Positions 4,043 to 6,100 of a DNA stretch of 16,107 nucleotides are shown in pieces. Within the stretch, counting starts at the first letter, position 1, and every line of letters begins with the position of its first letter. The stretch comes from Bacteroidia bacterium (GTDB lineage: Bacteria; Bacteroidota; Bacteroidia; Bacteroidales; Azobacteroidaceae). The position numbers and the translations under genes were made by a program. The notes beneath the pieces are model-generated. The model did no database searches, was not told where the DNA came from, and worked only from the letters and a program-made list of their open reading frames with translations. The stretch is from NCBI GenBank assembly GCA_025999935.1, contig BNXY01000056.1:1-16107 (forward strand), written 5' to 3'.

Positions 4043-4519
4043 ATGAGTAGTCTGGTTTATTTGGCTTTGGGCGCCAATCTGGGCGACCGGGATTTGAATT
4101 TATTGAAAGCAATTGCGCGAATAGCCGAAAGAATAGGAATTTTTTCGGCTATTTCGTCTGTATATGAAACCCCAGCTTGGGGATTTGAATCGGACAATCT
4201 ATTTCTGAATCAGGTGGTTTGTGTGGAAACCGATTTAAGTCCGCAAGAGATATTAACGGAAACCCAAAACATTGAAAAAGAAATCGGTCGCACGGAAAAA
4301 ACCAATCACAGCTATCAAGACCGATTAATCGATATAGACTTGATTCTGTACAACGATCTGGTTTTTAAGTCGGAAACGCTGGAACTTCCCCATCCGCTTT
4401 TCCATCAAAGAATGTTTGTTTTAGAACCCTTGAATGAAATCGCCCCGGAATTGGTGCATCCGATATTAAAAAAGCAGATAAAAATTTTGTTGAATGAATA
4501 TCGTAGTTTAGGTAAATAA
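4043..4519 (+). CDS. folK: 2-amino-4-hydroxy-6-hydroxymethyldihydropteridine diphosphokinase (HPPK)
   Basis: FolK transfers pyrophosphate from ATP to 6-hydroxymethyl-dihydropterin in folate synthesis. The 158-residue length is that of a single-domain HPPK. The N-terminus LALGANLGDR (7-16), SSVYETPAWG (38-47), the signature DRLIDIDL (93-100) with the metal-binding aspartates, and PHP followed by FVLEPL (116-130) are all present. The chosen ATG at 4043 gives the standard MSSLVYLALGANLGD start; an ATG at 4036 is out of frame. It follows queA after a 56-base hairpin-bearing spacer and may share that transcript. It ends about 70 bases before the metK promoter. Confidence 0.94.
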   Translation: MSSLVYLALGANLGDRDLNLLKAIARIAERIGIFSAISSVYETPAWGFESDNLFLNQVVCVETDLSPQEILTETQNIEKEIGRTEKTNHSYQDRLIDIDLILYNDLVFKSETLELPHPLFHQRMFVLEPLNEIAPELVHPILKKQIKILLNEYRSLGK

Positions 4520-4591: not shown

Positions 4592-4623
4592 TTTGGATAA
4601 TATATAAATGTTTCGTAACTTTG
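4592..4623 (+). promoter_or_regulatory. metK promoter, Bacteroidota type (-33 TTTG / -7 TAACTTTG)
   Basis: TTTG at 4592-4595 and TAACTTTG at 4616-4623 are separated by 20 bases, the spacing expected for the main sigma factor of Bacteroidota (TTTG, about 19-21 bases, TAnnTTTG). This predicts a transcription start near 4628-4631, directly before the riboswitch aptamer. It is the best-formed promoter in the window. Confidence 0.82.
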
Positions 4624-4630
4624 CCCCGTA

Positions 4631-4731
4631 ATTAGAAAAGTGGATAGATTTGTATGCTTGCAACCACAATAAAAAATGCTAAAAACCGGTTTATGCGGTT
4701 TCTTTATTACAAATCACTTCTCTTTTCTGAT
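4631..4731 (+). promoter_or_regulatory. Predicted antiterminator: aptamer 5' half pairs with the terminator's upstream arm
   Basis: AGAAAAG (4634-4640) is complementary to CTTTTCT (4722-4728), and GATTTGTA (4647-4654) to TACAAATC (4708-4715). Between them the two 6-base stretches are equal in length and pair at three of six positions. The outer ends add 4631-4633 with 4729-4731. In total about 21 pairs form over 24 positions. This duplex uses the P1 5' arm and GATTT of the aptamer as well as the 5' arm of the terminator at 4726-4745, so it excludes both. The inner hairpin AAACCG/CGGTTT (4683-4688 with 4696-4701) fits inside it. This is read directly from complementarity; the regulatory role is inferred. 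Confidence 0.7.
4637..4688 (+). ncRNA. SAM-II-like riboswitch aptamer in the metK leader
   Basis: The segment carries the conserved SAM-II elements in order: a P1 arm GTGG (4640-4643), GATTT (4647-4651), TTGCAA (4658-4663), the closing P1 arm CCAC (4664-4667), ATAAA (4669-4673) and GCTAAAAA (4678-4685). These match the well-studied SAM-II (metA motif) core GAUUU, UUGCAA, AUAAA, GCUAAAAA. The pseudoknot can form through GC (4660-4661) with GC (4678-4679) and GT (4652-4653) with AC (4685-4686). SAM-II is known from Proteobacteria and, to my recollection, Bacteroidota. P1 is only 4 bp, with an extra base before GATTT, so this is a slightly divergent member. Placement before SAM synthetase fits feedback by SAM. 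Confidence 0.78.
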
Positions 4732-4752
4732 AAATAATTATCAGATTTTTTT
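4726..4752 (+). terminator. Intrinsic-type terminator in the metK leader
   Basis: TCTGATAA (4726-4733) pairs with TTATCAGA (4738-4745) over 8 bp with an ATAA loop, followed at once by seven T residues (4746-4752). The stem is A/T-rich but the shape is that of a factor-independent terminator. It ends about 20 bases before the metK ATG, so it would cut off metK transcription when formed. I infer that it is the OFF state of the SAM riboswitch. Confidence 0.72.
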
Positions 4753-4771
4753 ATTTTAAAACATTACAATT

Positions 4772-6034
4772 ATGAGTTATTTATTTACCTCGGAATCCGT
4801 ATCGGAAGGGCATCCTGATAAAGTAGCCGATCAGATATCCGATGCGCTGTTAGACCAGTTTTTAGCCTACGATGCCGATTCCAAAGTAGCGTGTGAAACC
4901 TTAGTGACGACCGGACAAGTGGTTTTAGCCGGCGAAGTAAAATCAAAAGCTTATGTGGATGTTCCCGATGTAGCCCGCAGGGTTATCGAAAAAATCGGTT
5001 ATACTAAAAGCGAGTATCAGTTTGAAGCTCAATCCTGCGGGATTTTGAGCGCTATTCACGAACAATCCGGCGATATCAACCGGGGTGTGGAACGGGAAGA
5101 CCCGCTCAATCAAGGCGCCGGCGACCAAGGCATGATGTTCGGTTATGCAACTGCCGAAACTGCCAATTATATGCCGTTGCCTTTGGATCTTTCTCACAGT
5201 TTATTGATTGAATTGGCGAATATCCGTAAAAACGAAATTCATTTGATGCCGTATTTGCGTCCCGACGCCAAATCGCAGGTAACCATTCAATACAATGACG
5301 ACGGCACCCCCGAAAGCATTGATACCATCGTGATTTCTACCCAACACGATGAATTTGCATCGGACGAAGCCATGCAGGCGAAAATCAAAGAGGATGTTAT
5401 CAACATTCTTGTTCCCAGAGTAAAAGCCATTTATCCGGCTCATGTTCAAGCATTATTCAACAATAAAATCAAATATCACGTGAATCCGACCGGCAAATTT
5501 GTAATCGGCGGCCCGCACGGAGATACCGGCTTGACCGGACGGAAAATCATTGTAGATACGTATGGCGGAAAAGGCGCGCACGGCGGCGGCGCATTTTCGG
5601 GAAAAGACCCCTCGAAAGTGGATCGTTCAGCCGCTTATGCCGCACGTCATATTGCTAAAAACTTAGTAGCAGCCGGTGTTTCCGACGAAGTTTTGGTACA
5701 GGTGGCTTATGCGATCGGCGTGGCTGAACCCATGAATATTTTCATCAATACTTACGGAAAAAGTAAAGCCCAACTGAGCGATGGCGAAATTGCCGAAAAA
5801 GTAGCCGCCCTTTTCGATATGCGCCCGAAAGCCATCGAATTAAGGCTGAAGCTCCGCAACCCGATTTATTTGGAAACCGCAGCTTACGGTCACATGGGAC
5901 GTCAACCGGAAACAGTTACTAAAACGTTTACTTCCCGCTATGTCGCAGAACCCACCAAACAAATTGAAGTAGAATTGTTTACATGGGAAAAACTCGACTA
6001 TGTGGATAAAATCAAGGCAGCGCTGAGCATTTGA
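4772..6034 (+). CDS. metK: S-adenosylmethionine synthetase
   Basis: MetK joins methionine and ATP to give SAM plus phosphate and diphosphate; the active enzyme is usually a tetramer. Motifs are [17 protein letters not shown] (9-25, ATP-binding HPDK), [12 protein letters not shown] (115-126), [13 protein letters not shown] (246-258) and [16 protein letters not shown] (271-286), covering all three repeats of the fold. The 420 residues exceed the E. coli enzyme (384), as is usual for Bacteroidota. It stands alone with its own promoter, leader and terminator. No Shine-Dalgarno sequence precedes the ATG, and the region upstream is A/T-rich. The leader carries a SAM-II-like aptamer and a terminator, so feedback by SAM is likely. 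Its product feeds MiaB and QueA, also encoded here. Confidence 0.98.
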
Positions 6035-6065: not shown

Positions 6066-6100
6066 AAACCTGTTAGGTCTTAAAGACCTAACAGGTTTTT
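6066..6100 (+). terminator. Strong palindromic terminator or repeat element after metK
   Basis: A 15-base arm (6066-6080, AAACCTGTTAGGTCT) pairs perfectly with 6084-6098 around a 3-base loop, and the 3' arm ends in a T-run (6096-6100). Placement 31 bases after the metK stop fits transcription termination. The symmetric A/T ends could make it work in both directions. The sequence resembles palindromes I recall from other Bacteroidota intergenic regions, so it may also be a dispersed repeat. Confidence 0.75.

Follow-up and report, generated by a model that had tools for sequence, protein, structure and literature searches.

A SAM-II riboswitch predicted to attenuate metK transcription in one genus of Azobacteroidaceae

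The gene metK, whose product makes SAM, the chief methyl donor of the cell, is preceded in a Bacteroidia bacterium belonging to the Azobacteroidaceae by a leader resembling a SAM-II riboswitch, and the locus raises the question of how such an aptamer controls its gene in Bacteroidota. A first-pass annotation had proposed a transcriptional layout in which the aptamer strand itself acts as antiterminator, and this proposal was followed up on the window, i.e. the whole stretch of 16,107 nt under analysis, and on the leaders of relatives. The window derives from a 3.16-Mb draft genome, 81% complete, and the aptamer sits in the interval between folK, which ends at 4519, and metK, which starts at 4772 (Table 1). 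Upstream of metK, the matches for folK, queA and truB exceed the NCBIfam cut-offs, and weaker matches under the cut-off were obtained for undecaprenyl-diphosphate phosphatase and ftsX. Directly 3' of metK lies an inverted repeat of 12 perfectly matched bp (6069-6080/6084-6095) with five T residues after it (6069-6100 in all), which likely represents a terminator after the gene.

Table 1. Features of the metK locus, in window positions.
Feature	Position	Strand	Basis
TTTG, candidate -33 promoter element	4592..4595	+	match to the Bacteroides consensus, in the passages of PMC7366714
TAACTTTG, candidate -7 promoter element	4616..4623	+	Bacteroides consensus; TAnnTTTG in genus leaders
Aptamer 5' flank, most of the antiterminator 5' strand (helix A)	4631..4639	+	fold, pairing and swap tests
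SAM-II aptamer (RF01726)	4634..4692	+	covariance model, 60.2 bits
P1 stem of the aptamer	4640-4643/4664-4667	+	model alignment and listed base pairs
GATTTG of the aptamer	4647-4652	+	sequence
GCTAAA of the aptamer	4678-4683	+	sequence
Small hairpin directly 3' of GCTAAA (AACCG...CGGTT), accessory helix	4683..4701	+	fold and genus counts
TACAAATC, complement of aptamer 4647-4654 (helix B, anti-aptamer strand)	4708..4715	+	minimum-energy fold
Antiterminator helix A 3' strand (4726-4731 also in terminator 5' arm)	4722..4731	+	fold, constrained energies
Predicted intrinsic terminator (arms 4726-4733 and 4738-4745, T7 4746-4752)	4726..4752	+	sequence, relatives' leaders
metK, methionine adenosyltransferase, gene presumed regulated	4772..6034	+	TIGR01034, 510.2 bits (cut-off 309.4)

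For comparison, 147 leaders were collected, 26 from the genus of the source organism, 6 from other genera of the family and 115 from other Bacteroidota (35 of these from named organisms), the last two groups making up the 121 leaders outside the genus. Leaders were picked by a regular expression for the motifs together with a metK start, which leaves aside aptamers with other loops; they represent part of the order-level SAM-II matches, and 36 of the 80 metK loci from named organisms entered the set. Leader L112 is the same as L002 and was counted once. Seven aptamers for which no metK start was matched were left out of the terminator count, as L137 and L138 are cut off by the contig end, the starts of L182, L188, L191 and L221 follow other patterns and the gene behind L190 is a different one.

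The Rfam SAM-II model RF01726 matched the leader with 60.2 bits against a gathering threshold of 44 (E 1.1e-9), confirming the SAM-II-like element that the first-pass annotation had placed before metK. This was the sole Rfam match in the 16-kb window at gathering thresholds, and the whole source genome (81% complete) returned no other match to RF01726. As to the P2 pseudoknot, which in SAM-II joins the P1 loop to the 3' strand, the conserved TTGCAA and GCTAAA are both present; the structure line of the RF01726 alignment shows no pseudoknot. Judged by its sequence, the element is a genuine SAM-II riboswitch on metK with SAM as its presumed ligand. The aptamer is somewhat unusual in this genus, because the P2a extension of the pseudoknot was found by an exact-word test in only 2 of the 26 genus leaders (0.9 in permuted data, 366/5000) versus 52 of the 121 others (32.6 permuted, 0/5000), where it covaries. 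In terms of duplex energy the P2a pseudoknot gave no signal (4603 of 5000 permutations equally good), perhaps owing to poor scoring of very short helices. The small hairpin directly after GCTAAA occurs in 21/26 genus leaders (7.3 expected) versus 25/121 of the others (26.9 expected) and may take over the stacking role of P2a in the genus.

The Bacteroides promoter consensus, as given in the passages of PMC7366714, consists of -7 and -33 elements. As TAACTTTG and the TTTG upstream of it fit this consensus, the metK transcript probably starts near 4629-4631, in agreement with the earlier placement of the aptamer just after the predicted start. The motif TAnnTTTG was found 29-32 nt 5' of GATTT in 23 of the 26 genus leaders (0.8 expected), and outside the genus in 105 of 121 (5.7 expected), 83 of which carry it 25-31 nt 5' of GATTT. 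Given this position, transcripts should begin at or near the first paired base of the antiterminator. The motif is missing from the genus leaders L113, L117 and L132. In L113 (1418-1559) and L117 (1419-1559) a tRNA-Asp gene ends 6-8 nt before the metK aptamer, and since the usual promoter motif is absent there, the riboswitch may be co-transcribed with the tRNA and receive its 5' end from tRNA processing; a search for a tRNA in L132 found none.

The lowest-energy fold of 4628-4760 was a long duplex, not the aptamer, with an energy of -25.1 kcal/mol against a mean of -16.2 (SD 3.25) for shuffled sequences (z -2.73; 1 of 200 shuffles equally good). It comprises 21 pairs between 4631-4654 and 4708-4731, in blocks of 10 (4631-4640/4722-4731), 3 (4642-4644/4718-4720) and 8 (4647-4654/4708-4715). 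The duplex of about 21 pairs with 4708-4731 described in the first-pass annotation was thus recovered, beginning at 4631, three bases 5' of the 4634 claimed there, and the 8-bp hairpin followed by seven T residues was also found, with a 4-nt loop. This hairpin is AT-rich and weak (-6.5 kcal/mol). As 4726-4731 are common to the antiterminator and the terminator 5' arm, the full forms are mutually exclusive over 6 nt, as had been proposed; the competition is, however, close, the full antiterminator at -24.8 kcal/mol lying about 1.5 below the terminator combined with a shortened duplex at -23.3. Since the exchange of part of helix A for the terminator costs only ~1.5 kcal/mol, antitermination could be leaky. 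Forcing P1 and the terminator returned -19.7 versus -24.8 kcal/mol, a cost of ~5 kcal/mol from which the energies of the pseudoknot and of SAM are excluded. Folding of the growing transcript in steps showed P1 at 4680; the long duplex, still missing at 4722, had formed at 4728, ahead of transcription of the terminator 3' arm (4738-4745). As the duplex has formed by 4728 and the 3' arm comes later, SAM must probably act before ~4728 and the outcome of the switch is likely kinetic, in a model that includes neither pseudoknot nor polymerase footprint.

What has been computed is the aptamer (covariance model), the two folds with their conservation and covariation, and the promoter motif. From these we infer with considerable confidence that the SAM-II riboswitch turns metK off by transcription attenuation, SAM binding, OFF polarity and termination being the predicted parts of this reading. 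At low SAM, the nascent stretch 4631-4654, i.e. the flank, the P1 5' strand and GATTTGTA, would pair with 4708-4731, and the long duplex would unfold the aptamer and occupy the terminator 5' arm, letting the polymerase read into metK. At high SAM, the aptamer would fold first around its ligand through P1 and the pseudoknot, withholding the 5' strand, so that the hairpin 4726-4745 would form and transcription would stop at the T tract.

By a fixed rule, a terminator was recognised in 20 of the 26 genus leaders (all with SAM-II and complete; dinucleotide shuffles give 0.40), in 1 of the 6 leaders from other genera of the family (0.05 expected) and in 4 of the 115 from elsewhere in Bacteroidota (1.35 expected). 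A laxer cut gave 20/26, 1/6 and 6/115, with 1.15, 0.25 and 3.15 expected, respectively. The transcriptional layout suggested for Bacteroidota was thus found in one genus and not across the phylum. The single case in the rest of the family is L226; its genome, G288, shows 7% contamination and carries two SAM-II copies, so L226 may not truly be part of it. The rule found no terminator in the genus leaders L114, L118, L124, L130, L134 and L136, the last of which carries a bulged terminator outside the rule. On a MAFFT alignment (A1) of the genus leaders, 95.9% of the terminator helix cells were paired, against a maximum of 54.6% when the helix was slid; 3 of its 7 pairs were changed on both sides, and 7 of 500 shuffles reached the covariation score. 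Terminator pair types on A1 were not in excess (6 versus 5.6 in shuffles, 268/500).

In all 21 genus leaders with a recognised hairpin, the 5' flank can pair with the terminator-arm region over 9-13 bp, in a survey whose arm-overlap counts may be one too high. Flank and P1 paired with their own downstream region at -11.97 kcal/mol versus -9.38 (SD 0.37) after swapping among the 24 genus leaders (of 26) that matched a narrower start pattern, none of 5000 swaps being as good, and the non-redundant set of 12 leaders gave -11.74 versus -9.02 (SD 0.61; 0/5000). In the 24-leader set the promoter region, taken as control, leaned to self (212/5000). Both swaps drew on all kin distances; kinship was addressed by swapping with the five nearest kin, where the own partner was better in 20/26 leaders by a mean of 1.23 kcal/mol (Wilcoxon p 0.005; controls p 0.41 and 0.59). 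Because the position of helix A in A1 differs by one base from leader to leader, A1 was used for the terminator only and helix A was counted in fixed slots, in which 22 of the 26 leaders could be placed. These slots were paired in 92.0% of cells versus 88.9 (SD 0.8) for whole-arm swaps (0/2000), a value favoured by the register being set by each leader's own pairing, and they contained 16 further pair types versus 10.8 (SD 1.2; 0/2000). Slots with a double change were modestly enriched (4 versus 1.3 in swaps, 47/2000 reaching 4). In L112 and L123, the clearest examples, an A-to-G change in the flank is matched in the terminator by T-to-C on the 5' arm and A-to-G on the 3' arm, so both folds survive; in the A1 count the corresponding terminator pair is CG in two sequences. 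A similar triple change, with a bulge, was seen by eye in L136.

Helix B did not covary within the genus (1099/5000 swaps), and the complement of GATTTG (CAAAT[CT]) was found downstream in 12 of the 26 genus leaders (2.8 expected). The proposal that the aptamer strand serves as antiterminator must therefore be narrowed: the P1 5' strand and GATTTG do take part in the duplex, but the decisive arm is the 5' flank (4631-4639) with P1. The leaders of relatives accordingly bore out the terminator, which is conserved, and the flank pairing, which covaries, but not the GATTTG part. Outside the genus, the flank gave no signal, pairing with the downstream region at -6.69 kcal/mol versus -6.55 after swapping (1014/5000).

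A different signal was obtained outside the genus, where in 105 non-redundant Bacteroidota leaders the aptamer 5' half paired with its own downstream region at -17.49 versus -14.68 (SD 0.24) kcal/mol, a difference of 11.6 SD (0/5000 swaps). It resides in the variable loop, which alone gave 8.3 SD; P1 with GATTTG, hardly variable, gave 0.8 SD (970/5000), and the controls 1.5 SD (coding sequence) and 1.7 SD (aptamer 3' half). The last 22 nt with the coding start paired with the aptamer no better than swaps did. Compared with the ten nearest kin, the own partner was better in 73 of the 105 leaders, by a mean of 2.04 kcal/mol (p 6.6e-7), the controls giving p 0.03, 0.42 and 0.10 with means of 0.28-0.48 kcal/mol. 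The duplex has 18.5 pairs on average, and its commonest centre lies 40-50 nt before the ATG (38/105). An exact 6-nt complement of the own loop occurred in 71/121 leaders, versus 45.0 (SD 4.0) swapped and 28.1 shuffled; examples are L059, with 12 uninterrupted pairs, L054, L020, L104 and L107. In L006, from an uncultured Parabacteroides, the downstream strand has two possible partners, the aptamer 5' half or, as seen by eye, the arm of a local hairpin lacking a T tract, which makes it a second candidate switch.

In Bacteroidota, a downstream strand that can unfold the aptamer thus seems to belong to SAM-II generally; as far as the leaders tell, this anti-aptamer strand seems to extend through the phylum, and the genus seems to have added the terminator that the 5' flank drives. 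We are inclined, with some reserve, towards an ancestral Bacteroidota switch in which the downstream strand would pair with the aptamer 5' half (about 18 predicted pairs) when SAM is absent; one lineage would have extended the pairing into the 5' leader and grafted on a co-evolving terminator, and elsewhere the freed strand would act by other means. One such means might be sequestration of the metK start by the freed strand in leaders outside the genus: their pairing gave -6.1 SD with overlapping regions and -5.4 SD without overlap (short leaders -4.8, long leaders -3.7 SD), against controls of -3.6 SD (untranscribed) and -2.0 SD (coding positions 40-80). Another might be loading of Rho on the freed strand, which is C-rich; by base composition this looks the same as a strand that is C-rich as the complement of a G-rich one.

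Attenuation in the genus has to be weighed against a constitutive or processing role of the hairpin, with SAM acting elsewhere, at translation start or on mRNA decay. A precedent exists in S. meliloti metA, where the passages of PMC9373788 describe a SAM-II aptamer controlling translation, followed by a terminator that it is not predicted to govern; most SAM-II leaders outside the genus carry no terminator by the same rule, and the two folds differ little in energy. A constitutive terminator would, however, have no need of a 5' flank covarying with its arm, as observed in the genus, while further points against this reading are that the aptamer ends 80 nt before the ATG and that, outside the genus, downstream-strand pairing to the start region is not clearly above controls. 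We consequently regard this reading as unlikely.

The opposite polarity, with SAM binding favouring read-through, is highly improbable: the antiterminator uses the P1 5' strand and GATTTG of the aptamer, so that aptamer and full antiterminator exclude each other, product feedback on metK would call for an OFF switch, and no point in support of it was found. It is equally hard to believe that the pairings reflect chance, composition or kinship, although a conserved aptamer makes complements easy to find and some controls do lean to self, i.e. the promoter region (19/5000) and the aptamer 3' half (11/5000) in the swaps outside the genus, the untranscribed control (-3.6 SD) and one neighbour-swap control (p 0.03). 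These leanings are exceeded by the main effects, which amount to 4.5-7 SD in the genus (flank) and 11.6 SD outside the genus (aptamer 5' half); coding-sequence controls reach only -1.5 and +0.3 SD, and the effects are kept in the nearest-kin swaps, both in the genus (20/26) and outside (73/105).

The first-pass annotation had assumed that most described SAM-II elements act on translation, a premise that is at best partly right. A 2024 review agrees in its passages, which place SAM-II under ribosome-site occlusion (PMC10907184); in alpha- and beta-Proteobacteria, however, terminators are reported as the commonest SAM-II platform in the passages of PMC2258182, and for S. meliloti metZ termination by SAM-II is predicted, with sRNA evidence in the form of a short RNA rising under high SAM (Scheuer 2022, PMC9373788). 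Control of transcription by SAM-II is therefore not new as such. The metZ element resembles the present one in that its SAM-II aptamer is predicted to cause intrinsic termination on SAM binding, but it belongs to an alphaproteobacterium and to another gene. The translational SAM-II of metX shares the aptamer class, but its ribosome binding site is occluded inside P2 (PMC10907184, same passages); in the window no such site lies inside or next to P2, the aptamer ending at 4692 and the ATG lying at 4772. Generic terminator/antiterminator riboswitches, as the passages of PMC2258182 present them, likewise have mutually exclusive folds with P1 as part of the switch, whereas here the P1 5' strand switches together with the leader in front of the aptamer, and their pairing spans the aptamer entirely.

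The closest relatives are the SAM-II long loops, listed by Weinberg 2010 from Bacteroidetes and marine samples (PMC2864571). The element is a member of their covariance model (RF01726) and likewise stands before a SAM-synthesis gene in Bacteroidota, but the passages concerned describe no expression platform, and the studied genus mostly lacks P2a and usually has a hairpin after GCTAAA. We found no description of a SAM-II platform in Bacteroidota or of a 5'-flank antiterminator in the literature, subscription papers and supplements (Weinberg's annotated alignments) aside, so the aptamer is a known one and its flank-driven expression platform in a Bacteroidota genus looks undescribed. SAM-II is nevertheless common in the order, occurring in 165 of 247 sampled genomes, as well as in 33/45 genomes of the family (genus included) and 27/38 of the genus; searches spanning more than 40 genomes used stricter filters and may miss weak copies. 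Two platforms can thus be tested: the clear terminator/antiterminator of the genus, with the transcript's own 5' end as switching strand, and the more widespread anti-aptamer strand, which mostly lacks a terminator. Their comparison would reveal how the output mechanism of a riboswitch evolves while its aptamer stays fixed.

Within the genus, metK was found in 32 of 38 genomes, the copy in G278 being only a fragment; G280 and G251 have two copies each. Five genomes have metK without SAM-II, and the six metK leaders read from them (L153, L158, L164, L172, L227 and L228) lack the aptamer; all of these except L227 have TAnnTTTG near the ATG, which would fit either loss of the riboswitch or its never having been acquired. 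Two of the five genomes, G091 and G248, measure 1.0-1.2 Mb and are 99% complete. Protist symbionts, e.g. Azobacteroides, likewise have small genomes. Bacteroidales bacterium OttesenSCG-928-M11 probably belongs to the same genus as the window, since its metK leader L002 is identical over the compared stretch to L112 of the genus member G256. Finally, G083 has two SAM-II copies, one of which (L190, 513 onwards) precedes an ORF starting MNTEKNIYTEVEKRILVLDGAMGTM that, by eye from the DNA, looks like the methionine synthase MetH.
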